Below, piece after piece: positions 27,201 to 41,237 of a stretch of 50,555 nucleotides of DNA. The position numbers and the translations under genes were made by a program. The DNA lies in NCBI GenBank assembly GCA_005778035.1, contig SXKT01000070.1, positions 1 to 50,555 on the forward strand, given 5' to 3'. Position 1 is the stretch's first letter; each line of letters opens with the position of its first letter. Source of the DNA: Chloroflexota bacterium. Its GTDB lineage: Bacteria; Chloroflexota; Anaerolineae; Anaerolineales; Villigracilaceae. The notes beneath the pieces are model-generated. The model saw only the letters and a program-made list of their open reading frames with translations, had not been told where the DNA came from and searched no databases.

Positions 27201-28502
27201 ATGGAAGTCTCGAATACCACCCCTGTTTATGCGGTTCCAGAACAAAATCTGGTTCCGGTCAATCCTTATCTCAAGGATATGCAGGCAATCCCGCCATCCC
27301 GAATGTTCCTGATCAACAAATCTCTCAAAGTTTATCAGGAAAAAAATCCGGGAGCGACCGTTTTTGATGCCTCGCAAGGGGATGGAGGAGCCTCATTGCC
27401 AGGGGTTCCGCGGCAGATATTAGAGCGTGCCGCTGAAATGCAAATTGAGCATGGTACAAGTTACGATATGCCATTTGGAACCGAGGCTTACCGAAAGTCA
27501 GTCACCGAAAAGTACTGGAAATTGGAACCATCACTGGGTTACGGGCCACAAAACGTATTGGGTACTTGCGGTGGCCGCGATGGCTTGATCAAGGCTTACC
27601 AGACCATGTTACACATGGGCCATGGGCGCGAAGGCGATGTGATCGCAGTCTCTCGCGTGCCGTGGATCAGTTATAACTGGGGACCCTACGGGATAGGCGC
27701 AAATGTGGTTTGGTCACCGGGCGACCCTGCCAATGGCTGGGCATATACGGAAGAAGGTATCCAGGAAACTGTCAAGTTTACTGCCAAGAGTGGCCGCAAG
27801 GTGGCCGGTTTGGTGATCACCAATCCGGATAATCCGACCGGGCTTACGACCTCGGTTGAAAAACAAGTATCTTTGGCCAAGGCAGCCCTTGCTGCGGGTA
27901 TTCCGTTTGTGTTATTCGACTGGATGTACCATTACGTTACCGATGAATCACCGATGGATCTCAACAAATTCTTGGCAAATTTTGATCCCGCGGAACGCAA
28001 GAAATTGATCTTTTTGGATGGCATTACCAAATCTTTGGGCGGTTCCAATGTGCGCAATTGCCATCTCATCGCAGATGAAGAGGTGGTCAAATTTATTGTG
28101 GCACGTGCTTCCCACACTGTAATGCCCACTTTTTACTCCCTTGCGGTAGCAATGGCGGCTTACGAAATGGGTTATAGCGAAGCTGCCAAGTCCATCATTG
28201 AACCAACCAACCAGAGCCGTCGCGTGCTAAAACCATTGTTGGAAAAAGCAGGATTCACTCATATTATCGGTAAAGGTTACTATGCCTTCATTAATGTCGG
28301 CGAGTTCGTAAAAGCCAAAGGATGGGCGGATAGCGAACCGCTTGGACAATACCTCGCCGAAAATTTTGGTGTGGCCATCGTTCCTGGTGCGTTTTTCTCG
28401 CCATTCGGTAACGATTGGATCCGTTTTAGTTATGCCACCCCCCAAGACCGAACTGTCGGCGCTTTCGAGAGGTTGGTCGAAGGTCTCAATTCCCTCAGAT
28501 AA
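27201..28502 (+). CDS. Class I/II pyridoxal-phosphate aminotransferase
   Basis: A 433-residue fold-type I aminotransferase. The co-substrate-binding block is VITNPDNPTGLTTS near residue 204. The Schiff-base Lys is in FLDGITKSLGGSNVRN near residue 277. The C-terminal Arg region is NDWIRFSYATPQ. The substrate is not clear. The N-terminal DASQGDGGASLPGVP region differs from ordinary aspartate aminotransferases. AAGGAG is well placed before the ATG. It lies directly behind the leader/attenuator and 11 nt before the ligase-hydrolase fusion, so the two form one regulated operon. Confidence 0.9.
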   Translation: MEVSNTTPVYAVPEQNLVPVNPYLKDMQAIPPSRMFLINKSLKVYQEKNPGATVFDASQGDGGASLPGVPRQILERAAEMQIEHGTSYDMPFGTEAYRKSVTEKYWKLEPSLGYGPQNVLGTCGGRDGLIKAYQTMLHMGHGREGDVIAVSRVPWISYNWGPYGIGANVVWSPGDPANGWAYTEEGIQETVKFTAKSGRKVAGLVITNPDNPTGLTTSVEKQVSLAKAALAAGIPFVLFDWMYHYVTDESPMDLNKFLANFDPAERKKLIFLDGITKSLGGSNVRNCHLIADEEVVKFIVARASHTVMPTFYSLAVAMAAYEMGYSEAAKSIIEPTNQSRRVLKPLLEKAGFTHIIGKGYYAFINVGEFVKAKGWADSEPLGQYLAENFGVAIVPGAFFSPFGNDWIRFSYATPQDRTVGAFERLVEGLNSLR

Positions 28503-28513
28503 GGCGCTTTTTA

Positions 28514-31339
28514 ATGTCATTATTTAACCCAAAGCAGTTTGCTGAAAAATTTAACCTTGCGTTGGAATCTGTAAAAGCCGAAAAACCAAATGGTGGCCTA
28601 AGTGGTATCGAGCTGGAATGGAACTTGCTCGATGAACGATTATCACCTCTGCTGACCGTTGGTTCCGGCCCAGCAAAAATGTCTTTTGTTGATTACCTGC
28701 GAGCTGAATGCTTGCCAAAAGACTTGGTCCATTTTTCGCAGTTGGAAGTTTTTCATTGGATGGTAGAGTTCGCTTCCAAACCGTATTACTCTGCAAAAGG
28801 CGCGATCTACGAGACCCGCCTTTTGGAAGCGATCTTGATCAACTCGTTAAAAAAAGCTGGCAAACACTTCAATGAAAACCTGTTCTATTGGCATGGCAAT
28901 CTTTTGTTCCAAACCGATATTACCCACGATTCTATTCCGGGGAATTGGAGTATAGCCAAGCGGCGCTACCTTGAACGTTGCGTGGACTTATACGGCAATA
29001 CCCTTGCTACCGCCGGTATCCATATCAATCTATCGTTGCCAGACCCATTGTTCAGCTGGGATTTTATGCACTTGCCTCAGGCTGATCGCAACAGCAAACA
29101 TCTCGACCAATTCAAAAGCGAGTTTTACATCACAGCCACTCGCTGTTTGCGAGCTTTTGCTTCCTTATACATCGCTACCAGCGCATCTACTCCGTTGCAA
29201 GCACAAATGCGCAATGGTAAATCGGTGGTTGTGCTTACCGAGTTTGATTCTGTTCGTAATTTAACCTTCCCGAACCCCGCAGAGATCGACCAGGCAGACC
29301 TGTACCGTAGTTATAAGGACTATAAGGCAATTTCGTACGACCTCGTAAATCGCGGTGTCCGTTTTGGGAATAATAATTGGACCCCCGTCCGCGCTCGTTC
29401 TTTTGCGGAGCCAGTTGAACGCCTGATCTCCACCACTGGCGACCAACTTAATGACTTGTATACTCGCGGTTTGTATTCAATCGGTGATCTTACCCCCGCA
29501 GAGGAAATGGCGCGCCAGATCGAAAAACAAAACCTGCTCGCCCGCATCAACCTGCCCATGGGCCGCGTGGAGATCCGCACTGATGATGGAGGACACCCAG
29601 TCGCCACGGACTTGGCCAACCTGACGCTTAAAAACCTGCTGCTGATGCGGATCTATGCCGACCCCACATTTGCGCGTTCATTCAGGTACGACCGAGAAGA
29701 CATCACTCGCGCCCGGGCAAACGAAGTATTGGCCAGCCAAAAAGGCCTCAATGCTGAAATTGAAAATCCGCTGACAGCAAAACCTGTCAAAATGCGCGAT
29801 TTCCTTAAATGGACCTTGACCGAATTAACGCCTTTAGCCGAAGCACTTGGAGTAAACAAAGATCTGCAACCCTTGTGGGATATGGCTAATGGAGGCCCCA
29901 ATACCTCCAATATTCTCCGATCCCGCATTCGCGAGTTCATTGGCGACAAAGATGAGGTTCCGATGGACATCCTCCGCATGATCGCACAAGAACGACAGGA
30001 CCAGATAGCTGGCGAGGTTGAGCTCATCACCGCTAACTTGGGAGAGATTTCGGCTGAAGCCTTCAAGTTGACTACCATTATAGATTCCGCACGGGTAGAA
30101 GCCCTCACCGAAACCAGTCTGCCCATCCGATTCCGCCCTGCAGTTGATGCCAACCTGCCCAGCGAGTATGCCACCAAAACCGAAGAGATCGTGGACCTTT
30201 CTTCCACCCTAATCCGGATCCCTTCTGTCACCGCTTGCCCGGAAGAACGGCTACATGAGGTTCACAGGGCGGGGACGATCATTTACGATTACCTAAAAAA
30301 TGCCGGGTTGGCGGTACGTTATTTCGATGGCAAGTACCCTGCCATTCTCGCATCTTTTCAACCAAAAAATTCTGTACACAAAATTGGCTCATCCCTGCTA
30401 ACAGGCCACTTCGATGTGGTTGAACCAGAACCTGATGACAGCCAATTCCTCCCATCCGTAGAAGGCAATTATCTCACGGGGCGTGGTTCTGCCGACATGA
30501 AAACAGTTGTTGCTACATACCTGGTTTGGATGAAGGATGTACAGCAAGCTGGAGGGCCATTCCCTGATATTTCGATGTTGCTGGTTGGCAACGAAGAAAA
30601 TGGCGAAGCTGAAGCATGGGGTACACCTCAAGTACTTAATCTGCTTAAAACTGAGAGTGGTTATGAGCCTACCTTCTTTATCGCAGGGGAGAGAACAGGC
30701 GAAAAAGGGGATGAGCTCTACGGCGAGATCTGCGTTGAAAATCGTGGCGTTATGCGCTTTGATGTGATCGCTCGCGGATCCAAAGGGCATTCTGGTGTGG
30801 CAGGTACCGGCGATTTATCAGACAAACTGATCAATGCCCGAGAAGGATTGAATGAGATATTTGGCAAAAACCTCACACTGAAATCCGACGACGGCTGGCA
30901 ATCGCAAGCCAAATTTCCGTTTATTAAGGTAGGCACGCCCGGTGTTTACAATGTTACTGCCGCCGTAGGCATTTTGGGGGTAGAGATACGTCCGATACCG
31001 CAGGACAACATCAGCAACTTGCAGGTTGAGGTTGAGCGCTATTGTGCTGAAAATGGCCTTGAAGTGGAATTTTCGGTGAATGAAGCTGGCGTTGCCTGCT
31101 CTGCCGATAACCCGGCTTTGCGTGCCCTGATTGCCGCCGTACGGGCAGTTTCTGGCGCCGAGCCGCGCATTGGTCGAAAACTACCCGGCACAAGCGCTCG
31201 ATTCGCACCGGGTGGCCAGGCTGTAGTGTGGGGCCAAAGTGGAATTGGCCCGCACAGTAAAAACGAAAAACATTATATTCCCAGCATCGAACCGTTCTAC
31301 AACTGTCTTTGGGAATTTTCCCGCCAGCTTAAAGGGTAG
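28514..31339 (+). CDS. Fusion of a glutamate-cysteine-ligase-like domain and an M20 metallohydrolase
   Basis: A 941-residue protein. Residues about 1-550 resemble the glutamate-cysteine ligase (GCS2/YbdK-type carboxylate-amine ligase) superfamily: LSGIELEWNLLDERLSP near residue 26 and GRVEIRTDDGGHPVATDLAN near residue 350, with a conserved Arg/acidic pattern. Residues about 555-941 are an M20 (ArgE/DapE/CPG2) hydrolase. The metal ligands are visible: His/Asp in TGHFDVVEPE near 629, Asp in GRGSADMK near 659, Glu pair in GNEENGEAE near 693, and His in GPHSKNEKHYI near 910. One chain would thus form and break an amide bond. The ligase assignment is weaker than the M20 one. A strong terminator follows. 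Confidence 0.8.
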   Translation: MSLFNPKQFAEKFNLALESVKAEKPNGGLSGIELEWNLLDERLSPLLTVGSGPAKMSFVDYLRAECLPKDLVHFSQLEVFHWMVEFASKPYYSAKGAIYETRLLEAILINSLKKAGKHFNENLFYWHGNLLFQTDITHDSIPGNWSIAKRRYLERCVDLYGNTLATAGIHINLSLPDPLFSWDFMHLPQADRNSKHLDQFKSEFYITATRCLRAFASLYIATSASTPLQAQMRNGKSVVVLTEFDSVRNLTFPNPAEIDQADLYRSYKDYKAISYDLVNRGVRFGNNNWTPVRARSFAEPVERLISTTGDQLNDLYTRGLYSIGDLTPAEEMARQIEKQNLLARINLPMGRVEIRTDDGGHPVATDLANLTLKNLLLMRIYADPTFARSFRYDREDITRARANEVLASQKGLNAEIENPLTAKPVKMRDFLKWTLTELTPLAEALGVNKDLQPLWDMANGGPNTSNILRSRIREFIGDKDEVPMDILRMIAQERQDQIAGEVELITANLGEISAEAFKLTTIIDSARVEALTETSLPIRFRPAVDANLPSEYATKTEEIVDLSSTLIRIPSVTACPEERLHEVHRAGTIIYDYLKNAGLAVRYFDGKYPAILASFQPKNSVHKIGSSLLTGHFDVVEPEPDDSQFLPSVEGNYLTGRGSADMKTVVATYLVWMKDVQQAGGPFPDISMLLVGNEENGEAEAWGTPQVLNLLKTESGYEPTFFIAGERTGEKGDELYGEICVENRGVMRFDVIARGSKGHSGVAGTGDLSDKLINAREGLNEIFGKNLTLKSDDGWQSQAKFPFIKVGTPGVYNVTAAVGILGVEIRPIPQDNISNLQVEVERYCAENGLEVEFSVNEAGVACSADNPALRALIAAVRAVSGAEPRIGRKLPGTSARFAPGGQAVVWGQSGIGPHSKNEKHYIPSIEPFYNCLWEFSRQLKG

Positions 31340-31410: not shown

Positions 31411-33102
31411 TTATGCGTATGCCGGTTCCAACGCATACTTGCGAACGAGTGCTTCAAATCTCGGATCTTGACGGATAAAATCCAGATCCATGTCAGCTTG
31501 CGCAAGCGCGATTGAAGTTTGTTTCTTTTGCAGGGCTGTCTCCAAAAACTGAAGAGCCAGGTTTGTTTCTCCTCGTACCGATTCAAAACATGCTCGGTCA
31601 TATTCTTTTTCGTTCTTCATAAATGGCATGGCGAAATCGATGTGGTACTTGGCTTTATCTGGGTAACCTAATCGTCGAAAGTAATTGGCCAGCGCGCAGT
31701 GGGCGTAAGTAGATGTGGGGTCCATTTCAAGCACTTTTTGCATTTCAGATATGGCGACATTGAAATTTCCATATGCCGCGTAGAGCGATCCCAGCTGGAA
31801 ATGGTAGATATGTTTGCGTGGTTGAATGGATACCGCATTCTCGTATGCGAAGATAGCCTTGTCGTACCAGCGTTTGATCTTATACAAGTTGCCCAGCGAA
31901 TCCCAAGCGCGGTCGTTGAAAGGGTTCTCCTTCACCGTTGTCTCAAACTTGCGGATCGAGACCAACAATTGGTCGTCATCCATGTCCATATCAACCGGTT
32001 TGTTTTGCTCAAGAACCATCGCTTCATCGCTCGCCAGTTGCTCGTGAGTACTTGTTGAACTTTGGTTGACCGCATCCATTTCGATCATTTCTGGTTCTGC
32101 CATATCTCCGCTGGAATTACTTGCAGTGACAATGTTCGGCATCGGTTTATCCAAACGCAATCCTTCCATCGTCCTTTGGTAATACTCCAACGCTTTCTGA
32201 TAAACCTTGATCCCGTCATTACCATAGGCATTGTGGTCAAACACATTTCCCAATTGATAACAAGCAACTGCCTCGTCCAATTTTCCGTGTTTGGTCATCA
32301 GGTCCCCCATACCATTCCAACTTTCAGGGTCTTCCGGGTTTTGTACCAGGGATTTATGATAGGCAGCCTGAGCTTCATCATTCATATCCAAGTTTTCATA
32401 AAGGGCGCCTACTTTGTTCCACGGAAAGATCTGGTTAGGGGCCAATTCAGCCGCCTTGAGGTACGCATCGATCGCGCCCTTTATGTCGCCAAAGGCTGTA
32501 CGCACCAATGCCAGTGAATGCCAGGCAAGCGCTTCGATCCATCGATTGTCGCTTTTTTGGGCGTCACCAATGGCCTTGGTCAAAACTTCCTCAGCATCTT
32601 CAAGCTGGCCATTGCGCCAATGCATAATGCCCATCGTCAACAACATTGTCAGGCGCAACCCTTCCTGGTTTTCCTCAATGCTCGCATCCGCATCGGTCAT
32701 TGGCTCCTTGCTTGTTTCAACGGATTCAACGTGCAACGGCTTTTGTTCTACCATGCCAACCGAAGGCAGCTGATTAGCCAGGCTTGGGTCCAACTCCAGA
32801 GAGCGGTTCAAATAACCCAAAGCCAACTGGCCATCGCCCAAACGAATGCACATCTTGCCCATTTCCATCAAGGCCAGCGCTTTGTCGCTGTTGGCTTGGC
32901 TGTTCTTCACAACTTCTTCAACCAAGCTTTGTGCCAATGCAACATCTTCACTTTTTGCCGCGGCCGAATAAAGCTTTTCCATCAACTGTGGGTTACGGTC
33001 ACCACAATCATACAGGCTCTGGTATATCTCAAAAGCTTTTTCCGAAAGATCCAATTTTTCATACATGCTTGCCAATTCCAACCAAGTTTGTGTGTTTTCC
33101 AT
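31411..33102 (-). CDS. TPR protein (563 aa), last gene of the MraZ-like/ATPase/TPR operon
   Basis: A protein made almost entirely of tetratricopeptide repeats, for example WLELASMYEKLDLSEKAFEIYQ at the N-terminus (WLELASMYEKLD), ALGYLNRSLELDPS, AWHSLALVRTAFGDIKGAID, WNGMGDLMTKHGKLDEAVAC, WDSLGNLYKIKRWYDKAI and HFQLGSLYAAYGNFNVAISE. An acidic linker lies between two TPR blocks near residues 330-385. No enzyme domain is seen. It is probably a scaffold for the upstream operon proteins. The start at 33102 is set by AGGAGAG; a longer ORF to 33204 would overlap the ParB-TPR gene. It follows that gene by 25 nt, the loosest junction in the operon. Confidence 0.85.
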   Translation of the reverse strand: MENTQTWLELASMYEKLDLSEKAFEIYQSLYDCGDRNPQLMEKLYSAAAKSEDVALAQSLVEEVVKNSQANSDKALALMEMGKMCIRLGDGQLALGYLNRSLELDPSLANQLPSVGMVEQKPLHVESVETSKEPMTDADASIEENQEGLRLTMLLTMGIMHWRNGQLEDAEEVLTKAIGDAQKSDNRWIEALAWHSLALVRTAFGDIKGAIDAYLKAAELAPNQIFPWNKVGALYENLDMNDEAQAAYHKSLVQNPEDPESWNGMGDLMTKHGKLDEAVACYQLGNVFDHNAYGNDGIKVYQKALEYYQRTMEGLRLDKPMPNIVTASNSSGDMAEPEMIEMDAVNQSSTSTHEQLASDEAMVLEQNKPVDMDMDDDQLLVSIRKFETTVKENPFNDRAWDSLGNLYKIKRWYDKAIFAYENAVSIQPRKHIYHFQLGSLYAAYGNFNVAISEMQKVLEMDPTSTYAHCALANYFRRLGYPDKAKYHIDFAMPFMKNEKEYDRACFESVRGETNLALQFLETALQKKQTSIALAQADMDLDFIRQDPRFEALVRKYALEPAYA

Positions 33103-33127
33103 GATTGCTCTCCTGATATTTTTATTC

Positions 33128-34537
33128 TTACAACCACAAGCGGGTTGGGTGTGGGTTTTGGCGCAGCATATTGGCAGCGCGGCTAAACAGGCTATTGTTT
33201 TCAATCTCGATTGGCTCTGCGATGGGTGCCACGTTGGCAGGTTGCATATACCATAACGTGTTTACTTCCGCACCAAAATCAGTATTGGATTCAATGTTAT
33301 TGGTTTCGTCGACCTCTTCGCTATCCAGGTCAACGCCCAGTTGGCCGATCATCTTGCGGATCATCTCTTTTTCCAAATCAGCAGCAGGGGTGCCGATCCG
33401 ATTTGCCGTTGGAGCCTTAAGACTATTCGCCACCGCGTAAGCACTCACACCGACCCGGTTAGCGATCTCATCGATCGAATAGTCGTGCTCGCTGGCAAGT
33501 TTTTGCAGATCAGACGCAATTTCTCCGCTGTCCTTTATGCCATTGTGCATATTTTCATGCAGCCTGATCTCAATCGATTCCGCGTCAGTTAGGTTGCGGA
33601 TGATCGCTGGAACCGAAACCTGGCCAGCCAGTTTGGCAGCCGCAAATCGGCGATTGCCGGCGACCACCGAGTACAGTTGGCTATCCCTGATCGGGGTAAC
33701 GATCAAGGGCTGCAATATTCCATGCAACTTGATCGAACGCACCAGATCATCCAGCATGTCATCATCAACTTCACGGGCCACCAAATCTGAGACCTGGATC
33801 GTCGCAAACCGCATTTCACTTTTTTTAGCGCTGCTATTAAGCTCTGCGATGATCTTTTCCACAATACCCGCCATTTCCATTTCGCCTTGCAGTCGATACA
33901 CACTTCGAATTCGGGTCCATGCTTCGGCAATTTCGGTGCCATCTTCAAGCAATTTTATTAGTTCTTCCAACTCCAACAGTGCTTCCTCAAGTTTCCCCTG
34001 GGTCAAGTATGCCTGAGAGAGGTTGCTATGTACGAACGGCAGCATTGGATCGATCCGAATGGCAGTCTGATAAGCATCCACCGCGTCATCGTAGGAACCC
34101 ACCTTGAACAATACCAAGCCAAGTTCATTCCAAACATGGGCATTGTCTTCGCCATTTGCTTCGGGAACCTCGGGCTTAGCCAGATAAGTTGTCACGTCAT
34201 CGGGTTGTGTTTCAACGAGAGCGCTAAGTTCATCCACAGCCTGGTAAACCCTGATAGCTTTAAAGTGCATATTGGCTGCCACATACAATGCCCCCAACTT
34301 ACGGTTTAATTCCAACATTTTCCCGGCATTGGTCGCGCAAGGTAAGGCGCGTTGCACCAACTCGGCCGCCGCCGAGAAATTGTTTAATTTTTCTTGCATG
34401 GCGGCAGCGAGGATCAACGCGTCGATGTTTCGGGGTGATTCTTGCAAAATGGAAGTGAAGGTATCCAGCGCTCGTTGGTGATGGCCGTTTTCATCCATTA
34501 TCTTGCCCAAGGTGATCATCAGGTTGTATCTGTTCAT
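33128..34537 (-). CDS. TPR-ParB fusion protein
   Basis: A 469-residue protein. Residues about 1-230 hold TPRs (HQRALDTFTSILQESPRN, VWNELGLVLFKVGSYDDAVD, VHSNLSQAYLTQGKLEEAL). Residues about 240-345 are a ParB/Srx-type N-terminal domain: IQVSDLVAREVDDDMLDDLV, SIKLHGILQPLIVTPI, the C-motif-like VVAGNRRFAAAKLAG and the E-N pair in RLHENMHNG. A helix-turn-helix follows (SIDEIANRVGVSAYAVANSL, near 365). The C-terminus is acidic and low in complexity. ParB domains bind CTP and DNA in plasmid and chromosome partition. A TPR front end is unusual, and no ParA is nearby. The start overlaps the previous stop (ATGA). Confidence 0.85.
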   Translation of the reverse strand: MNRYNLMITLGKIMDENGHHQRALDTFTSILQESPRNIDALILAAAMQEKLNNFSAAAELVQRALPCATNAGKMLELNRKLGALYVAANMHFKAIRVYQAVDELSALVETQPDDVTTYLAKPEVPEANGEDNAHVWNELGLVLFKVGSYDDAVDAYQTAIRIDPMLPFVHSNLSQAYLTQGKLEEALLELEELIKLLEDGTEIAEAWTRIRSVYRLQGEMEMAGIVEKIIAELNSSAKKSEMRFATIQVSDLVAREVDDDMLDDLVRSIKLHGILQPLIVTPIRDSQLYSVVAGNRRFAAAKLAGQVSVPAIIRNLTDAESIEIRLHENMHNGIKDSGEIASDLQKLASEHDYSIDEIANRVGVSAYAVANSLKAPTANRIGTPAADLEKEMIRKMIGQLGVDLDSEEVDETNNIESNTDFGAEVNTLWYMQPANVAPIAEPIEIENNSLFSRAANMLRQNPHPTRLWL

Positions 34538-36120
34538 TTGTTCCTCGATTCTTCAAAATTGGAGAAAAGGTTGTTGGTAAAGAGAGTATTCTTGCCTACA
34601 GCCAGCTTTTCAATCACAACATCATCGGCTGTTTGGTACGATTGGACAGCCTCGGTATAATTGCCGATCATTCGGTATTGGTCACCGATCAAATTCCAGG
34701 CTGTGCGTTTTTTGTGATCGTCGGTAAACAACGAAGCGCCTTTTTTCAAGTTTTCCAATGCGCTGGTGGGTAATCCCATCATGGAATAAAGAACTCCCAG
34801 GTTGGTAAAAGCGACCCCATTATTGCTGTCCAGGCGGATCGCTTGTTGGAAAGCAGCTTCGGCTTGTTTCATGTCTTTGCCGCGCAGAAGCACGTTACCA
34901 ATCTCGGTCCACATGTCCGCGTTCAGCTGGCTAACATCTACTTTCGCTTGGTTTGAATCTGTGTTGTTGAAGGATGATGAAATGGCGAATGCCGCAATGG
35001 CTTGGTCTACCCCATTTACTTGGGTGTAAAGCTTGCCGAGAATGCTCCAATATCGTTGTTCGTCTGATTCTGAAGTAGCCAATTTAACACACACCTTGTA
35101 TGCCGCAATGGCCTGATCGATCAAACCTTTCATTTCGTACCCTTTGGCCAGCTGCTCGGCAGCCTCAATGTTACCGGGGTTGGCCACCATCGCCGATTCC
35201 AGATCTGTAATGGGCGCATTGTTGTCAGTAGAAATAATGGTTTTGGAATAGAAAGCCCGGGGATCTGTTTTTTCGATCTCTGCCAGTTTCAGATCCAATT
35301 CCTGCTCTTCTGCAAATGCGCCGCGTTCGTGCGCAAAAAACTTTTTGGCCTTGATGCAAACGATTTTGGTGAACTTGCTTTGGGAAGCCTGTGAAGCTTT
35401 GCATGCGGTTGCCAGAGCGTTTTGGACAGCCTGTGAGTCTCCGTTTTGCCAGGCAACAACTGCCTGGGCAATCGCGTCCTGCACATCACCATCGATGTCA
35501 CTTGTGACATCTTGGAAGTTCAAATAGCCCTCTTGGCCAAGTCCCATTTCATCAATTTGCTTGGCAGGTGCAATACCAAACCTATCCACCACGGTGGAGA
35601 TCGCAGGTTGCGCGATGGTTGCGTCCAAACCGCTGGTAGAAGCCTCGTCTTCCAATTCGATCACTCGATGACGGGAAGCCCATAGGTCTGGCGCGCTGTG
35701 GGCAAATAACGCAGATTCTTCCTGTGTAAGCCAAACTACCATCCGAATGCCATTTTCGATGATCGAACGTTTGTTACTGTCCAAAATATCGATCAATTTA
35801 CTGATCTGGCTAACCGGAGTATTGCTGTTGATGGGATCAATTGAAATGACCGCGTTGCCATCCTTTACGCGAGACAGAAGGCTGACAAACTCGCCAGTGG
35901 CATCGTATTCCACCTGGTACATCACCTGGTCCATTTTGTTCCTGATAAGCTCTGAAGCCAACTGTTTTTGGGCGGTTTTACGGATGGCTGCGGAAGTATA
36001 GATGGCGAAGACAATCGAGGGGCGGCTCCAACGGTAAGCCATCGCAATTTCCTCGGCAATGGTGGTAACCTTGGTTTCGAGGGATTCAGGGTCAAAGCAA
36101 ATGCAGGCTGTTTTAGTCAT
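34534..36120 (-). CDS. TPR protein with an N-terminal domain shared with the divergent 209-aa protein
   Basis: A 528-residue protein. The N-terminal domain (about 1-160) includes EEIAMAYRWSRPSIVFAIYT near residue 23 and the closing block GIRMVVWLTQEESALFAHSA, then PDLWASRHRVIEL near residue 144. TPRs start near residue 300 (AAEQLAKGYEMKGLIDQAIA, WTEIGNVLLRGKDMKQAEAA, AFTNLGVLYSMMGLPTSALE, WNLIGDQYRMIGNYTEAVQS). The N-domain type is familiar from TPR/STAND-associated proteins of Chloroflexota and cyanobacteria, as I recall, but has no known function to me. It overlaps the ATPase stop by 8 nt (ATGACTAA) and the next gene by 4 nt. Confidence 0.82.
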   Translation of the reverse strand: MTKTACICFDPESLETKVTTIAEEIAMAYRWSRPSIVFAIYTSAAIRKTAQKQLASELIRNKMDQVMYQVEYDATGEFVSLLSRVKDGNAVISIDPINSNTPVSQISKLIDILDSNKRSIIENGIRMVVWLTQEESALFAHSAPDLWASRHRVIELEDEASTSGLDATIAQPAISTVVDRFGIAPAKQIDEMGLGQEGYLNFQDVTSDIDGDVQDAIAQAVVAWQNGDSQAVQNALATACKASQASQSKFTKIVCIKAKKFFAHERGAFAEEQELDLKLAEIEKTDPRAFYSKTIISTDNNAPITDLESAMVANPGNIEAAEQLAKGYEMKGLIDQAIAAYKVCVKLATSESDEQRYWSILGKLYTQVNGVDQAIAAFAISSSFNNTDSNQAKVDVSQLNADMWTEIGNVLLRGKDMKQAEAAFQQAIRLDSNNGVAFTNLGVLYSMMGLPTSALENLKKGASLFTDDHKKRTAWNLIGDQYRMIGNYTEAVQSYQTADDVVIEKLAVGKNTLFTNNLFSNFEESRNK

Positions 36121-37381
36121 TCAACACCGCCTTCAAAACGGGGTGAACATCAAACCAGTTCTCTCCGTTCTTATATTCCAATAAGGCAAGCAATTGCAGC
36201 AAAGGGCGAATACGCTCGCTGGATTGCATGTGATTATTTTTGAAGAAATTTCTCAATACCGCGATGTCTTCTTTTTCTAATATGCGGCGATATTCATTCC
36301 GAATCTCGGTAGCAGCCCATTCAACATCGGTTTTATCAACCTGATCGGCATTTCGTCTCCGTGCACGGCCAATGGCAGTGCGCATGATCCTCGCCATCTC
36401 CCGGAAAACACCACCGCTATAGGTAATGGCCAGCAACAAAGCTTGCGGTTCGATCAGGCGCGATTCCATCCGCTTGGATACAAAAAGTTTCATTGTCTCG
36501 TAGCCCTCTTTCACGTACTGTTCGGGCAAACGATGTGGGTGTAACATCACATTCGGTAAAAACATTGCCTGATCACGGATGGCATCAAATTCCTTGCTGT
36601 AAAACAACGCCGAGGAAACCGTATAGACGATAGCGCAATTGGGTTGCAGCATGATCTCACGTCGCTCCTGGAAGATAGATTTGGCTTCCTTCAAACCTGG
36701 CTTGTCCAAATCGTCGATCAAGATCAGTGGTATCCGGCCATCCCGAGCTTGCACCGCGCCTGCGATGCTGTTGATAACATCGATCAATCCGGTTACATTT
36801 TTATCGATCACCTGGCGGATCTGCCGGCGGGTCTTGGGCTCCATACGCATCTTTAAGCTGGCATTGGCAAAAAAGGCTTCAAGGCCCGCGCCAACTTCCA
36901 TGTTGGAATACTTGCCTTCTTTTACTGTTGTCACTTCTTCTTCAACCCGTCCGCGCCAACTTTCCAGGTCCTTCATCAACTTGGAAGGCAATACACCGCC
37001 CTGTTTTCGAAATTCCAAGAACATTCGGCCACCCATCGCCAACAACACATCTCGGAAGTCAAGATCAATGATGTCAGCTTCGTCGCGGATGCTAAAAACT
37101 ACCGGCCAAAATTTTTTCTGTATCTGAGGATTTGCCATCAAGTGCAGGAGTTCAGTAGACTTTCCACAACCGCGATGGCCGGAGAAAAAGAACTTGGGTG
37201 GCTTATAAAACGGGGAAAGCAAACCATCGATCAACTCCGCAATTGGATCTCCAGGCCTCGTGATGTAAAAGGGATTGGGTTTGCCGTTTGTGCCTGCTTC
37301 CAATGGCAGATCCAGCTCAAAATTAAGCCAGGCTCTGTCAAAATCCGTCGCGCGCAAGTAATTAAAGTGATTGGTCATCAT
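36113..37381 (-). CDS. STAND/AAA-type P-loop ATPase
   Basis: A 422-residue soluble ATPase. Walker A is FFFSGHRGCGKSTELLHL near residue 66, and Walker B is IPLILIDDLDKPGL near residue 218. The GHRGxGKSTEL form and the later segments (AIVYTVSSALFYSKEF, MLHPHR) resemble STAND/KAP-like signalling ATPases rather than ring-forming AAA+ enzymes. A C-terminal helical/winged-helix-like part (LLAITYSGGVFREMARIMRT, RIRPLLQLLALLEYKNGENW) follows. It probably acts as a nucleotide switch for the TPR partners. The stop of the MraZ-like gene overlaps its ATG by one base (TAATG). Confidence 0.85.
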   Translation of the reverse strand: MMTNHFNYLRATDFDRAWLNFELDLPLEAGTNGKPNPFYITRPGDPIAELIDGLLSPFYKPPKFFFSGHRGCGKSTELLHLMANPQIQKKFWPVVFSIRDEADIIDLDFRDVLLAMGGRMFLEFRKQGGVLPSKLMKDLESWRGRVEEEVTTVKEGKYSNMEVGAGLEAFFANASLKMRMEPKTRRQIRQVIDKNVTGLIDVINSIAGAVQARDGRIPLILIDDLDKPGLKEAKSIFQERREIMLQPNCAIVYTVSSALFYSKEFDAIRDQAMFLPNVMLHPHRLPEQYVKEGYETMKLFVSKRMESRLIEPQALLLAITYSGGVFREMARIMRTAIGRARRRNADQVDKTDVEWAATEIRNEYRRILEKEDIAVLRNFFKNNHMQSSERIRPLLQLLALLEYKNGENWFDVHPVLKAVLND

Positions 37382-37800
37382 TATTTCCCGAAGCAGATAG
37401 AGATCGAGGGGTCAAATTCCAGCGTGCCACTGGTGAGGGCGCTCATCTGTTCAGTCCAGCCAGAGCGGCTCCAAACTTCCAAATACATTCCCTGTCCAAC
37501 CAATACCACTTCGTCGCCCAGGTTTTCCGGCAACGGCAATTCAACCTCGCCCTCAGCGTTGGCCATTACCAGGTTGGCATTGCCAACCAAAAGGCGTTGC
37601 AACACACGGGCAGCCGGGTTGAGGATGTTCATTGCCCTTAAGCTGGATTCGATGGCAAAAAATGTCGCGCTAGGCACCAGTAATAAGTTATTTTCAAAAC
37701 CCAAAGTTAATACCCAACCTAACCCACCTTCCGCCTGGTAACGAGCGGGCAGGTGAAATTTCTTGTTGGTGGCTTTGGCAGTCTCTGTTCCAATGAACAA
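37381..37800 (-). CDS. MraZ-like double-AbrB-fold protein
   Basis: A 139-residue protein with the two-repeat MraZ layout: LPARYQAEGGLGWVLTLGF and NLLLVPSATFFAIESSLRAM in the first half, LQRLLVGNANLVMANAEGEV and VVLVGQGMYLEVWSRSGWTE in the second. In standard MraZ each repeat carries a DNA-contacting Gly-Arg (K-G-R-L and Q-G-R-I). Here the matching places read NKKFHLP and EGEVELP, so the key Arg residues are missing. It is not next to mraW/ftsL as true mraZ is. AGAAGGAGAAG precedes the ATG. It is the first gene of the five-gene operon and may be a structural or altered regulator. Confidence 0.8.
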   Translation of the reverse strand: MFIGTETAKATNKKFHLPARYQAEGGLGWVLTLGFENNLLLVPSATFFAIESSLRAMNILNPAARVLQRLLVGNANLVMANAEGEVELPLPENLGDEVVLVGQGMYLEVWSRSGWTEQMSALTSGTLEFDPSISICFGK

Positions 37801-37953
37801 TTTGTCTTCTCCTTCTGTCTAATTACAACCAAAGTTTACGTCCTGACCCTTTTTAGCCATATCCTACAAGTAGGGTTATTTGACGGATATTTAGGGCATC
37901 AAAATACCCAATTTTTTAAGGCAAATTTGGTCAAGATTGCCTGTCCTTGGTTG
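37801..37953. promoter_or_regulatory. Divergent intergenic region with GGG-type direct repeats
   Basis: Three related units, TAGGG (37871), GACGG (37882) and TAGGG (37892), recur at about 10-11 bp on the plus strand. Known MraZ boxes are TGGG direct repeats at about 10 bp, so these could be operator sites for an MraZ-type protein. The minus-strand gene has a possible TGTAAT -10 near 37820. Function is not proven. Confidence 0.3.
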
Positions 37954-37989
37954 TATAATTGACCATAAGAGTATGGTCATTAATGACCA
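37954..37989 (+). promoter_or_regulatory. TATAAT box followed by overlapping palindromic operators
   Basis: TATAAT (37954-37959) is followed at once by TGACCATA-AGAG-TATGGTCA (37960-37979) and, overlapping it, the perfect 16-bp palindrome TGGTCATTAATGACCA (37974-37989). The half-site TGACCA/TGGTCA thus occurs three times in alternating orientation between -10 and the ATG at 37999. This is the layout of a repressor operator on the start site. The -35 is weak, which fits activator or repressor control. Confidence 0.6.
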
Positions 37990-37998
37990 GAAACCGAT

Positions 37999-38628
37999 AT
38001 GTCAAGTAAAAAGTTGATCTTTTCAACCCTAACCGATGAGCTGGAGTTGGCGGTCAAATGGCGAAGGCCATCCATCAGCATCATCACTGCACGCGACCCA
38101 CTTCGCTTTTTGGATCTCGCGCTGAACTTGTCCCTCATGGCCACCGATCTGGGTTTGCGGGTTCAACACCTCCACGCCACACCGCGCCAATTCGACTTGC
38201 CCTTGCGAATGCGTGATGCCAGTTACCGAAATGGCACCCTTTTCATCTGTACCGGTTTTTCCAACGGGGGAGGAGAAGGCGATCGAAACGCCTATACAGC
38301 GCTAAACATCCGGCGCGAGTGGTTGGTAGATCTTGGGATCAAGGCTGTTTTTTGCCCCACCGCAGCCGAAGCTCGAATACTTCCACGAGTAGCACCCGAT
38401 TTCTGGGTATTTCGCCATCACGCTTATGAATATCCCGCAGTGAGCACCATCTCGCTCGAAAAGGTGCCAGCGAGCAACGCCATCGCACTTCGCGGCTGGC
38501 TGGATCCATCCTGGCTCAAAATGCCTGTTACCCGTTCCACCGATCATCAGGCAGCCTTTGCCCTAAAATGGCTGGATGGCCGATCAAACTCATTTTCAAA
38601 CAACTCTGGCCAGAAAGGGAATAAATGA
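37999..38628 (+). CDS. Stand-alone homologue of the TPR protein N-terminal domain (209 aa)
   Basis: A 209-residue soluble protein. DELELAVKWRRPSISIITAR near residue 13 and the block LVDLGIKAVFCPTAAEARIL, then APDFWVFRHHAYEY near residue 132, match the corresponding parts of the 528-aa TPR protein encoded divergently. In both, an R-x-x-P-S-I strand opens the domain and A-P-D-(F/L)-W...R-H-(R/H)-x-x-E closes it. It carries no TPR part of its own. I do not recognise a named family. ATGA overlap couples it to the response regulator. The operator-like palindromes lie just upstream. Confidence 0.78.
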   Translation: MSSKKLIFSTLTDELELAVKWRRPSISIITARDPLRFLDLALNLSLMATDLGLRVQHLHATPRQFDLPLRMRDASYRNGTLFICTGFSNGGGEGDRNAYTALNIRREWLVDLGIKAVFCPTAAEARILPRVAPDFWVFRHHAYEYPAVSTISLEKVPASNAIALRGWLDPSWLKMPVTRSTDHQAAFALKWLDGRSNSFSNNSGQKGNK

Positions 38629-39287
38629 AAATCCTGCGAATTGTCGTAGTCGATGAACAAACTGTGGTCCGCGAGGGTTTGGTATCGATCCTCTCCTACC
38701 TGTCCGATATCCGGATATCAGGAGTGGCAAAGGACGCCGCGGAAGCTGTGAATGTCTGCAGGCAGGACAAGCCTGATGTGGTCCTTCTTGATCCAATAAC
38801 CTCCGAAGGAGATGGATTTGAAATTATCCATAAGGTGCTTGAAGTATCTCCTTCTTCAAAAGTCCTGGTCCTTACCAGTGTTTCCGACGCAGAGAAGGTG
38901 ACCAAGGCCATCAAGGCTGGCGCAATTGGTTACCTTTTAAAAAACTCGGATTGGGATACACACCTGCTGGCAATTCGCACGGTTTCGACCGGCCAATCTT
39001 TTTTCGACCCATCCTTCACAAGCAGTGTCATTACACAACTTTCACAAGATAAAAAGCCTGCCGATTCTGAGATGCAAAGCGATACACTAACCGACCGCGA
39101 AAAGCAAACCTTGGCACTGATCGCCAAAGGATTAAAAAACGCCGAGATCGCTGAAAAAATGGTGGTTCACGAACGTACAATCGCCAAATACGTTGGCAGC
39201 ATCCTTGCCAAACTTCATATGGATAACCGCACTCAGGCAGCTTTGTATGCGATCAATAACGGGTTAGACAAATACGAGGAAGAATGA
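38625..39287 (+). CDS. NarL/FixJ-type response regulator
   Basis: A 220-residue protein with a receiver domain and a LuxR-type HTH. The receiver has the acidic pair in RIVVVDEQTVVREGL, the phospho-acceptor Asp in VVLLDPITSEGDGF near residue 56, the Thr in VLVLTSVSD and the Lys in YLLKNSDW, so it should be phosphorylatable. The C-terminal HTH reads LTDREKQTLALIAKGLKNAE with ERTIAKYVGSILAKL. No histidine kinase gene is adjacent. It is coupled by 4-nt overlaps to both neighbours. It is a candidate to bind the TGGTCA palindromes upstream of the operon. Confidence 0.92.
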   Translation: MKILRIVVVDEQTVVREGLVSILSYLSDIRISGVAKDAAEAVNVCRQDKPDVVLLDPITSEGDGFEIIHKVLEVSPSSKVLVLTSVSDAEKVTKAIKAGAIGYLLKNSDWDTHLLAIRTVSTGQSFFDPSFTSSVITQLSQDKKPADSEMQSDTLTDREKQTLALIAKGLKNAEIAEKMVVHERTIAKYVGSILAKLHMDNRTQAALYAINNGLDKYEEE

Positions 39288-40105
39288 ACGAGAATCAAAA
39301 AAATAAAATTATCATCGGTGGCATATACGGAATTACCGCCGCCATTGTTTTCAGCTTTGCCGCTGCTGGTTACAACGCCAGCCAATACGCCAAAGCCCAC
39401 ATCGTAAATGCCTGGTTGGCATACATGCTATTGGCCGCTGTCACAATCCCAATCGGTGTTATTGCCGGTACACTCAGCATTCGCTTTGGCAGCACAGCAA
39501 AAAGCGCGCTCATTTGGCTGCTTGCTGGCTTTCTCAGCTCTATTTCAGCAACCTTGTTACCTTTGTGGCTTGTGCCAACTATCGTGGCAAATACCAATCC
39601 CGCCCAAGCCCCATTCCTCCAATTTTCATGGGAAGAATCTTTTATTTTTTTATTGGGTTTTTCGACAGCCATCACTCTTGTCGCTTTCGTGATCTTGGGC
39701 ATGCTGGAAAATTCTTTGGTAGATAGCGCTTATTACGCAAATTCAGCCGGCGCAGTATTGCCTGCGCTTTTGGTTAGCGCATTGCTGGCAGGTATCATCG
39801 GAGGGGTCGCCGACGCACTCATCAATCGCCCCATCCGCCAATCGGTAATGGCACTGGAAAAAGTCATTAGTTTCCAGTTAGCCCACTTGGATGATGTGCT
39901 GCCGAAAGAAACATCCCGGGCAATGCGCCTCTCATCTCTTAGACAGGTCAAACCAATGCTGGACCAAAATTGGAAAATGTACCTTGCTTCGGTCGATTTG
40001 ACATATTCAGAGACCCACATCCTGCTGGAGACGAACGGGCAGTTATCACTCTGTTACATATTTACCGACCAGGTCTCCAATTGCATGCCACAAACCAACA
40101 AATGA
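39284..40105 (+). CDS. Polytopic membrane protein, unknown family
   Basis: A 273-residue protein with about five hydrophobic helices (residues about 8-28, 44-65, 73-97, 118-145 and 155-178), then a cytosolic C-terminal domain of about 90 residues (SVMALEKVISFQLAHLDDVL). I do not recognise it. No kinase motif is visible, so it is not the sensor for the response regulator by sequence, although it could relay a membrane signal. It starts in ATGA overlap with the response regulator gene, and the next gene follows by 16 nt. Confidence 0.75.
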   Translation: MNENQKNKIIIGGIYGITAAIVFSFAAAGYNASQYAKAHIVNAWLAYMLLAAVTIPIGVIAGTLSIRFGSTAKSALIWLLAGFLSSISATLLPLWLVPTIVANTNPAQAPFLQFSWEESFIFLLGFSTAITLVAFVILGMLENSLVDSAYYANSAGAVLPALLVSALLAGIIGGVADALINRPIRQSVMALEKVISFQLAHLDDVLPKETSRAMRLSSLRQVKPMLDQNWKMYLASVDLTYSETHILLETNGQLSLCYIFTDQVSNCMPQTNK

Positions 40106-40121: not shown

Positions 40122-41237
40122 ATGACCATCGAACCATTCGCGATTGAACGCTATTTTGCCAAACATGAGTTTTCTGCCCGCTACCTGCTCAGCGCAAGTG
40201 ATTGCGAAGGCCTGCCCATGCGCGAGTTGATAGAAAAATCGCCTTCGCCGGCCCGCGATATGTGGAACCAACTTAAATTAAATTACACCGAATCGCAAGG
40301 TCACCCAATATTGCGTGGTCTGATCGCAGCCATGTATCCCGGACTTCAAGCAAGCAACATATTGGTTGGCGCACCAGAAGAGCTGATCTACATCACCATG
40401 CGAACCCTATTAAAACCCGGTGACCATGTTGTTGTGCTGGCGCCTTGTTACCAATCGCTTGCCAGTGTCGCAAAAGCAATCGGCTGCACAGTAGAACTTT
40501 GGTACCTGCATGAACAATTCGGCGCCTGGGAAATGGATCTGGAAGAACTCGCCAGAAAACTGAATAGCAAGACACGTTTGGTTGTCGTAAACTTCCCCAA
40601 TAACCCAACCGGTTTTTTGCCCAACAAAACCCAATTCCAACAACTGATCCAAATGGTCTCAACCAACGGGGCAACCTTATTTTGCGATGAGATGTACCGA
40701 TTTCTCGAACCCACGGACACTGAGAGGTTACCGAGTGCATCCACTGAGAGCAATAATGCCATATCCCTGTGCGGCATGTCCAAATCCTTTTCCCTGCCTG
40801 GCCTGCGGTTGGGTTGGTTGGCTTGCCAGGATGAAAGCCTGATCTCCCGATTGCTGGTTTATAAAGATTACACAACCATCTGTAATAGCGCTCCATCGGA
40901 GGTATTGGCGATCATGGCGCTTTATGCTAGCGAACGCATTCTTTCCAGAAATGTGAACATGATCCAGGTTAATACAGACCTGAGCCGGAAAACCTTCGAG
41001 AAATTTCCCAACTTGGTTCGTTGGATCACACCCTCGGCGGGTTCTGTTGCTTTCCCGGCATGGACTGGCAACCAAAACCTTGCGCTATTGGTGGAAAAAT
41101 GGGTTAACGAGCGAGGTTTGATGGTGGTCCCTGGGGAGTATTTTTTGGTTGCCAATGACCACTTTCGGGTCGGTTTGGGTAGAGAAAACTACCCCGAATC
41201 GCTGGGTGTACTTGCTGATATTTTGGGAAAAATGTAG
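40122..41237 (+). CDS. Class I/II PLP-dependent aminotransferase
   Basis: A 371-residue fold-type I enzyme. Motifs: VVVNFPNNPTGFLPNKTQF near residue 153, LFCDEMYRFLEP near residue 187 and the Schiff-base Lys in LCGMSKSFSLPGLRLGW near residue 221. The N-terminus (EPFAIERYFAKHEFSARYLL, then GLPMRELIEKSP) resembles the branch that includes capreomycidine-synthase-like aminotransferases, so the substrate may be unusual. It sits 16 nt behind the membrane protein gene, on the same strand, probably in the same transcript. Whether it belongs functionally with the signalling genes is uncertain. Confidence 0.88.
   Translation: MTIEPFAIERYFAKHEFSARYLLSASDCEGLPMRELIEKSPSPARDMWNQLKLNYTESQGHPILRGLIAAMYPGLQASNILVGAPEELIYITMRTLLKPGDHVVVLAPCYQSLASVAKAIGCTVELWYLHEQFGAWEMDLEELARKLNSKTRLVVVNFPNNPTGFLPNKTQFQQLIQMVSTNGATLFCDEMYRFLEPTDTERLPSASTESNNAISLCGMSKSFSLPGLRLGWLACQDESLISRLLVYKDYTTICNSAPSEVLAIMALYASERILSRNVNMIQVNTDLSRKTFEKFPNLVRWITPSAGSVAFPAWTGNQNLALLVEKWVNERGLMVVPGEYFLVANDHFRVGLGRENYPESLGVLADILGKM

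Follow-up and report, generated by a model that had tools for sequence, protein, structure and literature searches.

Within a 50,555-nt contig of an Anaerolineae bacterium (Chloroflexota; SXKT01000070.1, hereafter the window), five genes on the minus strand (A to E) stand opposite a plus-strand arm composed of a short gene (F), a response regulator gene and a membrane protein gene (Table 1). Two of the five, encoding the ATPase B and its neighbour C, form the constant unit of the cluster and are found alone in archaea. C combines an N-terminal domain, which we call DomX, with tetratricopeptide repeats (TPRs). The minus-strand genes are closely packed, as the original prediction described: A and B overlap by 1 nt, B and C by 8 nt, and C and D by 4 nt, while 25 nt separate D from E. 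The free domain copy and response regulator reported on the opposite strand are also there, as F aligns with the N-terminus of C and the regulator shows REC (receiver) and GerE domains in Pfam. Both junctions of the plus-strand arm are 4-nt overlaps, and an aminotransferase gene (40122-41237) starts in line with this arm, 16 nt past the membrane protein gene. As the gene order is repeated in dozens of genomes, the operon is more than chance.

Open reading frames (ORFs) of the window were scanned against Pfam and NCBIfam, and matches were judged by the family cut-offs. The membrane protein had no Pfam match at E<=1. No named system was known to have this gene makeup when the cluster was first noted, and we found none among open-licence papers.

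Table 1. Features of the cluster (window coordinates)
Feature	Position	Strand	Evidence
E: TPR protein, 563 aa from ATG, TPR end-of-group domain at C-terminus	31411..33102	-	Pfam TPRs; NCBIfam NF047558 64.6 bits (cut-off 32)
D: TPR-ParB protein	33128..34537; ParB_N ~33545-33775	-	Pfam ParB_N 8.1e-21; TIGR00180 90.9 bits (cut-off 58.45); TPRs
C: DomX-TPR protein	34534..36120; DomX ~35596-36120	-	Pfam TPRs; DomX by alignment with F
B: AAA+ ATPase, STAND/Orc-Cdc6 type	36113..37381; Walker A ~37157-37180, Walker B ~36701-36727	-	Motifs, predicted structure
A: MraZ-like paralogue, TTG start	37381..37800	-	Pfam MraZ 5.1e-9, 36.4 bits (cut-off 23)
Second palindrome, imperfect, overlapping operator	37960-37979		Seen in window and L057
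Predicted operator TGGTCATTAATGACCA, 7-2-7 inverted repeat, between A and F	37974..37989	none	Site conservation
F: free-standing DomX	37999..38628	+	Alignment with C N-terminus; AlphaFold2 model
NarL-type response regulator (REC-GerE)	38625..39287	+	Pfam Response_reg and GerE
Multi-pass membrane protein in F-regulator transcription unit	39284..40105	+	Same gene, same order in L057

A constant pair of ATPase and DomX protein

Gene neighbourhoods were read with profiles built from the loci and run on their predicted ORFs. Counts refer to the loci of a scan of named genomes plus the window (loci from a scan of relatives overlap that set), and L102, L129 and L130 were left out because they gave no ATPase ORF over the threshold. 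The gene directly after the ATPase, on the same strand, encodes a DomX protein in 59 of the 61 non-archaeal loci that extend more than 300 nt downstream and in all ten archaeal loci. The two genes overlap by 8 nt in 25 bacterial cases and by 4 nt in eight archaeal ones. In a more distant archaeal subfamily, DomX adjoins the ATPase in 11 of 11 loci read (one locus, L164, fetched for the survey that covered this subfamily and f23 Chloroflexota loci, yielded no ATPase ORF). Beside Chloroflexota relatives of the ATPase at 22-29% identity, the gene that follows gives a weak match to DomX (14-39 bits) in seven of nine loci. The other members are less constant, with MraZ upstream of the ATPase in 42 of 52 non-archaeal loci. 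Among the 41 non-archaeal loci with more than 7 kb downstream, the C-terminal part of E recurs in 36 and TPR-ParB is optional, being present in 11 (the profile count of 13 included two separate 284-aa ParB genes, in L080 and L123, which were removed). The notion that all five genes occur together thus gives way to a core of two, and the five-gene set is ruled out as an obligate unit by the optional MraZ and TPR-ParB genes.

This core is widely but patchily distributed. B has a match at E<=0.001 in 35 of 101 genomes (100 relatives plus that of the window); 27 of the matching genomes reach 52% identity or more and eight only 22-29% (full or partial matches). Close copies occur in five of the ten other genomes searched of the genus. 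A sample of 400 genomes from the phylum yielded 11 with a match at E<=1e-70; nine of these belong to the family of the window and the other two to a second family. The named-genome scan returned 75 loci. Most have Anaerolineae or Chloroflexi titles, ten come from Methanosarcinales or "uncultured archaeon" records, at about 37-43% identity, and a few others are titled as other phyla. The order that includes Methanococcoides has matches at E<=1e-60 in 42 of 185 genomes. Spread beyond Chloroflexota, raised as a question by the original prediction, is therefore confirmed, since Methanosarcinales carry the core pair. Around the archaeal pair, the cluster profiles detect no MraZ (0/10) and, in the loci with more than 6.5 kb upstream, no kinase or regulator (0/8); its neighbours, where matched, belong to metabolic or ordinary families, e.g. 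2-oxoacid oxidoreductase, aldehyde dehydrogenase and DCD-like proteins. A viral scan gave 343 pattern matches, none of which was confirmed as a cluster copy.

Three loci titled as other phyla (L058, L064 and L084) are placed among Anaerolineae sequences in the tree, which makes mis-binning likely. Two more contigs titled as other phyla (L077 and L130) carry Anaerolineae-type copies and are likely mis-binned too.

B had been called a STAND-type ATPase, and both Walker motifs and predicted structure agree. In an alignment of 59 of the 67 available stretches, picked by size, Walker A and the Walker B aspartates (D223/D224) are kept in 59/59 sequences and R269 in 58/59. The AlphaFold2 model (pLDDT 87.1) has Cdc6, TnsC and the NLR resistosome as its top VIA matches, and displays the AAA+ core, lid and C-terminal winged helix of the STAND/Orc-Cdc6 class. 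No Pfam or NCBIfam model, the Pfam STAND, NACHT and NB-ARC models included, was above cut-off for B; DAP3 (14.9 bits, cut-off 23.1) and DUF7774 both fell below, so the class rests on motifs and predicted structure. A search of solved structures (PDB) with the ATPase profile gave no sequence relative at E<0.05 (best E 0.09), and Orc1/Cdc6, TnsC and CED-4/NLR AAA+ proteins share about 10-17% identity with the cluster protein.

DomX at the N-terminus of C has lost the Walker A motif. It is predicted to be an AAA+ fold without ATP-binding motifs: the AlphaFold2 model of F (pLDDT 85.3) matches AAA+ folds, and an arginine, part of a PDxWxxR motif, is kept at the place which, in the predicted fold, is that of the arginine finger of AAA+ proteins. 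A known Pfam or NCBIfam family was considered for DomX and rejected, as F matched none; iSTAND was a further candidate family. In a tree of 89 DomX sequences (of 103 available stretches, picked by size), the 34 upstream (F) copies group without exception in a single 39-member clade (support 0.82), so F probably arose by a single duplication. The same clade also holds five C copies, which come from loci without a kinase, and the archaeal copies are not monophyletic. In L104 (11241-15112), a short DomX gene is followed by genes for a ParA-type ATPase and an S41 peptidase.

Putative operator, two-component genes and optional partners in Anaerolineae

The typical order in Anaerolineae is (Mrr nuclease)-DomX(F)-histidine kinase-response regulator on one side and MraZ-(second regulator or GH25)-ATPase-DomX/TPR(C)-TPR-TPR-END on the other. 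Among the 38 non-archaeal loci with more than 6.5 kb upstream, an upstream DomX is found in 32, a kinase in 30, a regulator in 31, two regulators in 16 and MraZ in 30. The regulators keep the phosphoacceptor aspartate and the lysine in 63/63 cases and have a conserved helix-turn-helix. The kinases keep LHD in 39/40 and have a 7TM-PAS-GAF-HisKA_3-HATPase layout, with all parts at E<=0.01 in four of the five scanned; some have no PAS match above the curated cut-off, and the PAS signal of L047 is weak. Full-length kinase searches of the window's genome and of genome G005 gave only partial kinase matches (23-34%), and the best match to a full-length query elsewhere in G000 was at 25%, over the kinase half.

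Between A and F lies a predicted, dedicated operator site. This 16-bp palindrome, TGGTCATTAATGACCA, is identical in L057 and L059, has one end mismatch in L074 and occurs as a single perfect copy in the window's 1.63 Mb genome. In the four genomes searched, sites with 0-1 mismatch lie at the cluster only, and sites with two mismatches number 1, 2, 1 and 4 (0, 1, 1 and 1 for the reversed pattern). When sites with at most three mismatches were counted within 350 bp upstream of genes, with shuffled patterns as a control, the operator preceded MraZ in 29/49 cases (shuffled 0.25), the ATPase in 12/61 (0.1) and F-type DomX in 6/36 (0.1). It preceded neither the kinase (0/39; shuffled 0.1), the regulator (0/66; 0.55) nor the TPR genes (0/75; 0.25), and only 3/345 other genes (1.3). 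No archaeal ATPase has a site within three mismatches (0/10). Excerpts of PMC7419079 give the same 7-2-7 layout for NarL sites, and we infer from sequence that the regulator binds this palindrome. The cluster resembles NarL-type two-component systems in its HisKA_3 kinase, REC-GerE regulator and 7-2-7 site; unlike them, it has its site essentially only at the cluster in the four genomes searched, and the window has no kinase.

MraZ is a DNA-binding family, and DxxGR is its DNA-contact motif. Protein A scores 58.2 bits against the NCBIfam equivalog TIGR00242, below the cut-off of 98.35, and has no DxxGR. The motif is lost in 16 of 21 cluster copies (five keep one), which retain other conserved stretches of the fold, while at least one DxxGR is present in all five separate MraZ copies read (eight fetched). 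From this loss, cluster MraZ may have given up specific DNA binding and serve as a scaffold. It was rejected as the housekeeping MraZ of the lineage because nine of the ten relatives searched have a separate copy elsewhere in the genome; no second MraZ was found in the window's genome, which is 63.75% complete. In L094 (11971-13417), a separate MraZ gene and rsmH/MraW lie downstream of the cluster, past one opposite gene, which places the cassette next to where a group of division and cell-wall genes begins.

D has the ParB_N domain of canonical ParB by both Pfam and NCBIfam. In ParB, the GERR and ENxQR motifs have a role with CTP. D reads GNRR and ENMHN instead, which weakens the suggestion that it may bind CTP; some relatives keep GERR/ENVQR. 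A separate ParB (301-aa frame) lies on contig C73.

Candidate effectors are encoded in the operons of some relatives. An Mrr_N-Mrr_cat protein precedes F in 15 loci, at 46 nt or less in 14 (Pfam in 4/4 read), and a GH25-SH3 protein directly precedes the ATPase in eight (Pfam in 4/4 read), lying between MraZ and the ATPase in six and in the equivalent position in two contig-end loci. These genes favour an effector output. In 14 loci, e.g. L096 (3584-5075), an ORF of the Y1 (IS200-like) transposase type, supported by Pfam in the single case read, stands just before the Mrr gene and may represent a domesticated element.

A possible two-protein switch and competing explanations

To our mind, the chances are roughly even that B and C form a mixed ring, a sensor switch driven by ATP and governed by a two-component system of its own. 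B, whose motifs are intact, would bind and hydrolyse ATP. DomX of C, probably unable to bind ATP normally, would put its arginine into the active site of B in trans, in the manner of an arginine finger that reaches over from the next AAA+ subunit. The TPR arms of C, with D and E, would control the state of the ring by binding a signal or a partner, and A would act as a protein scaffold and not read DNA. The NarL-type regulator, on the palindrome between A and F, would set the expression of both arms, with input in most relatives from the adjoining 7TM histidine kinase. As output we would expect either protection or an arrest of growth, with the nuclease or muramidase of the same operon as the likely effector in some relatives.

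In most of the locus pairs compared, the TPR parts have diverged more quickly than B. Between the window and L057, identity is 84% for the ATPase and 73% for the regulator, and only 43% for C, 44% for D, 40% for F and 39% for A (membrane protein 43%, aminotransferase 51%). L096 and L097 share 88% in the ATPase, 84-88% in the regulators, 83% in the kinase, 70% in MraZ, 59% in C, 55 and 51% in the TPR proteins and 60-81% in the outer genes. The trend is absent between L121 and L122, where ATPase and partner are both at 70%.

Several observations weigh against a ring under dedicated control. The kinase is missing in eight of 38 loci, including the window, and no effector was recognised in the window. 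DomX does not follow the ATPase in L106 and L131, the two exceptions among the 61 non-archaeal loci, nor adjoin it in either Chloroflexota locus of family f23 with a readable ATPase ORF. The arginine-finger role ascribed to DomX depends on the place of the residue in a predicted fold. No operator at three mismatches or fewer is found upstream of 20 of the 49 MraZ genes, and the pattern itself was derived from four of the loci (L057, L059, L074 and that of the window), whose removal leaves an MraZ count of 25/45, one of the 25 (L094, a 3-mismatch site) preceding the second MraZ gene, beside rsmH. Divergence is reversed in archaeal loci L122-L124, with 63% identity for the ATPase, 81% for the partner and 87-96% for the flanks. 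L122 and L124 ATPases that are 63% alike amid such flanks point to a possible gene replacement.

The cluster might instead be an anti-invader conflict system in which the TPRs detect a product of a phage or element, upon which the ATPase ring opens and the cell is killed or halted by the nuclease or muramidase. We consider this unlikely. It draws on a STAND-class ATPase with TPR arms, on the rapid divergence of the TPR parts, on the Mrr nuclease (15 loci) and GH25 muramidase (eight loci) and on the patchy presence within the genus; moreover, in excerpts of PMC8195603, a pair of inactive and active STAND modules is the core of the nSTAND2 two-gene conflict operon. Against it, in a scan of 139 of the 203 flanking families, made without a control set, the 25 families listed have at most two scattered PADLOC matches each and mainly housekeeping Pfam domains, with no recurrent defence family. 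PADLOC gave no specific anti-phage system match for the cluster genes themselves (the matches are weak and either TPR-driven, as is the best at 1.1e-9, ParB-driven or generic). Flanks are conserved within one locus group and in Methanoperedens-type archaea, and the lack of a viral copy and of a recognised effector in the window also tells against such a role. As for the suggested likeness to nucleoside triphosphate (NTP)-dependent conflict or signalling systems, the nuclease and muramidase of relatives make a conflict role conceivable, while the housekeeping genes of the sampled flanks, the lack of a recurrent defence family there and the viral scan speak against it.

A role as an envelope or division regulator, in which the kinase senses the envelope and MraZ-like, ParB-like and muramidase partners act on the wall or chromosome, seems to us less probable again. 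The MraZ paralogue, the GH25-SH3 gene directly before the ATPase, the ParB domain of some loci, the 7TM-PAS-GAF kinase and the separate mraZ-rsmH pair adjoining the L094 cluster would all fit. However, MraZ, ParB and GH25 are optional and absent around the archaeal pair, the ParB motifs of the window are altered, and an Mrr nuclease fits poorly. We think it improbable that the response regulator acts elsewhere and leaves the palindrome to a different reader, either the MraZ-like ring or the ATPase through its winged helix: sites upstream of MraZ, ATPase and F, with none upstream of the regulator or kinase, would suit such a reader from a DNA-binding family like MraZ, but the inverted repeat is NarL-like, the helix-turn-helix of the regulator is strongly conserved, most cluster MraZ copies have no DxxGR and archaeal ATPases have no site. 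Least probable of all is that the DomX-TPR protein is merely a scaffold and the ATPase an ordinary housekeeping enzyme co-transcribed by happenstance; TPR proteins are common scaffolds, but in two domains of life the genes overlap and are almost always adjacent, which, together with a patchy presence unlike that of a housekeeping gene, argues otherwise.

STAND sensors with TPR arms include MalT-like proteins and Avs-type defence proteins. The cluster shares with them a STAND ATPase and a TPR sensor, but places switch and sensor on separate proteins, and its sensor brings an AAA+ domain predicted to be without an ATP site. Closer in organisation is the nSTAND2 operon, for which excerpts of PMC8195603 describe two adjacent genes, an active and a nucleotide-site-eroded STAND module, a likely arginine finger on each and a predicted mixed ring. 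In that operon, which is described as mobile, GT4 or HEPN effectors sit on the inactive module, whereas C carries TPRs only, a two-component system and a MraZ paralogue are present, and the cluster occupies fixed chromosomal settings in several lineages. The vWA-MoxR-iSTAND ternary systems, in excerpts of PMC7159879, are likewise multi-gene, NTP-dependent and equipped with an inactive STAND-type module, unlike which the window's cluster proteins show no MoxR or vWA at E<=1 among the matches listed. STAND proteins diversified by diversity-generating retroelements are treated in excerpts of PMC10907252.

Beyond the ring of B and C, a broader proposal, which we hold tentatively and rate a little short of even, is that of a cross-domain class of switches in which an obligate AAA+/TPR partner without an ATP site senses the signal and, through its arginine finger, fires the ATPase in trans. 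Its ancient two-gene form would be that of Methanosarcinales. The Anaerolineae form would have added a duplicated DomX, private NarL-type control, a single-target operator, a MraZ ring as scaffold and effectors that can replace one another, namely a nuclease, a muramidase and a ParB-type DNA switch. If true, this would be a separable two-protein STAND switch, its motor and its sensor being separate chains, of which the one without an ATP site bears the arginine finger, so that signalling from TPRs to the AAA+ ring would be open to point mutation. It would also link uncultured Anaerolineae to cultured methanogens: as Methanococcoides alaskense DSM 17273 carries the core pair, the function can be sought in a growing organism. 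The unique operator would offer a direct handle on the timing of the system's production.

Two neighbouring regions of the window also encode aminotransferases. That of the plus-strand side (40122-41237) is near PRK07324 (231 bits) and GntC (220 bits), both below their cut-offs. At 27201-31339, an aminotransferase gene adjoins that of a 941-aa protein made of a weak glutamate-cysteine-ligase-like part and an M20 peptidase, which looks like an amino-acid pathway fusion.

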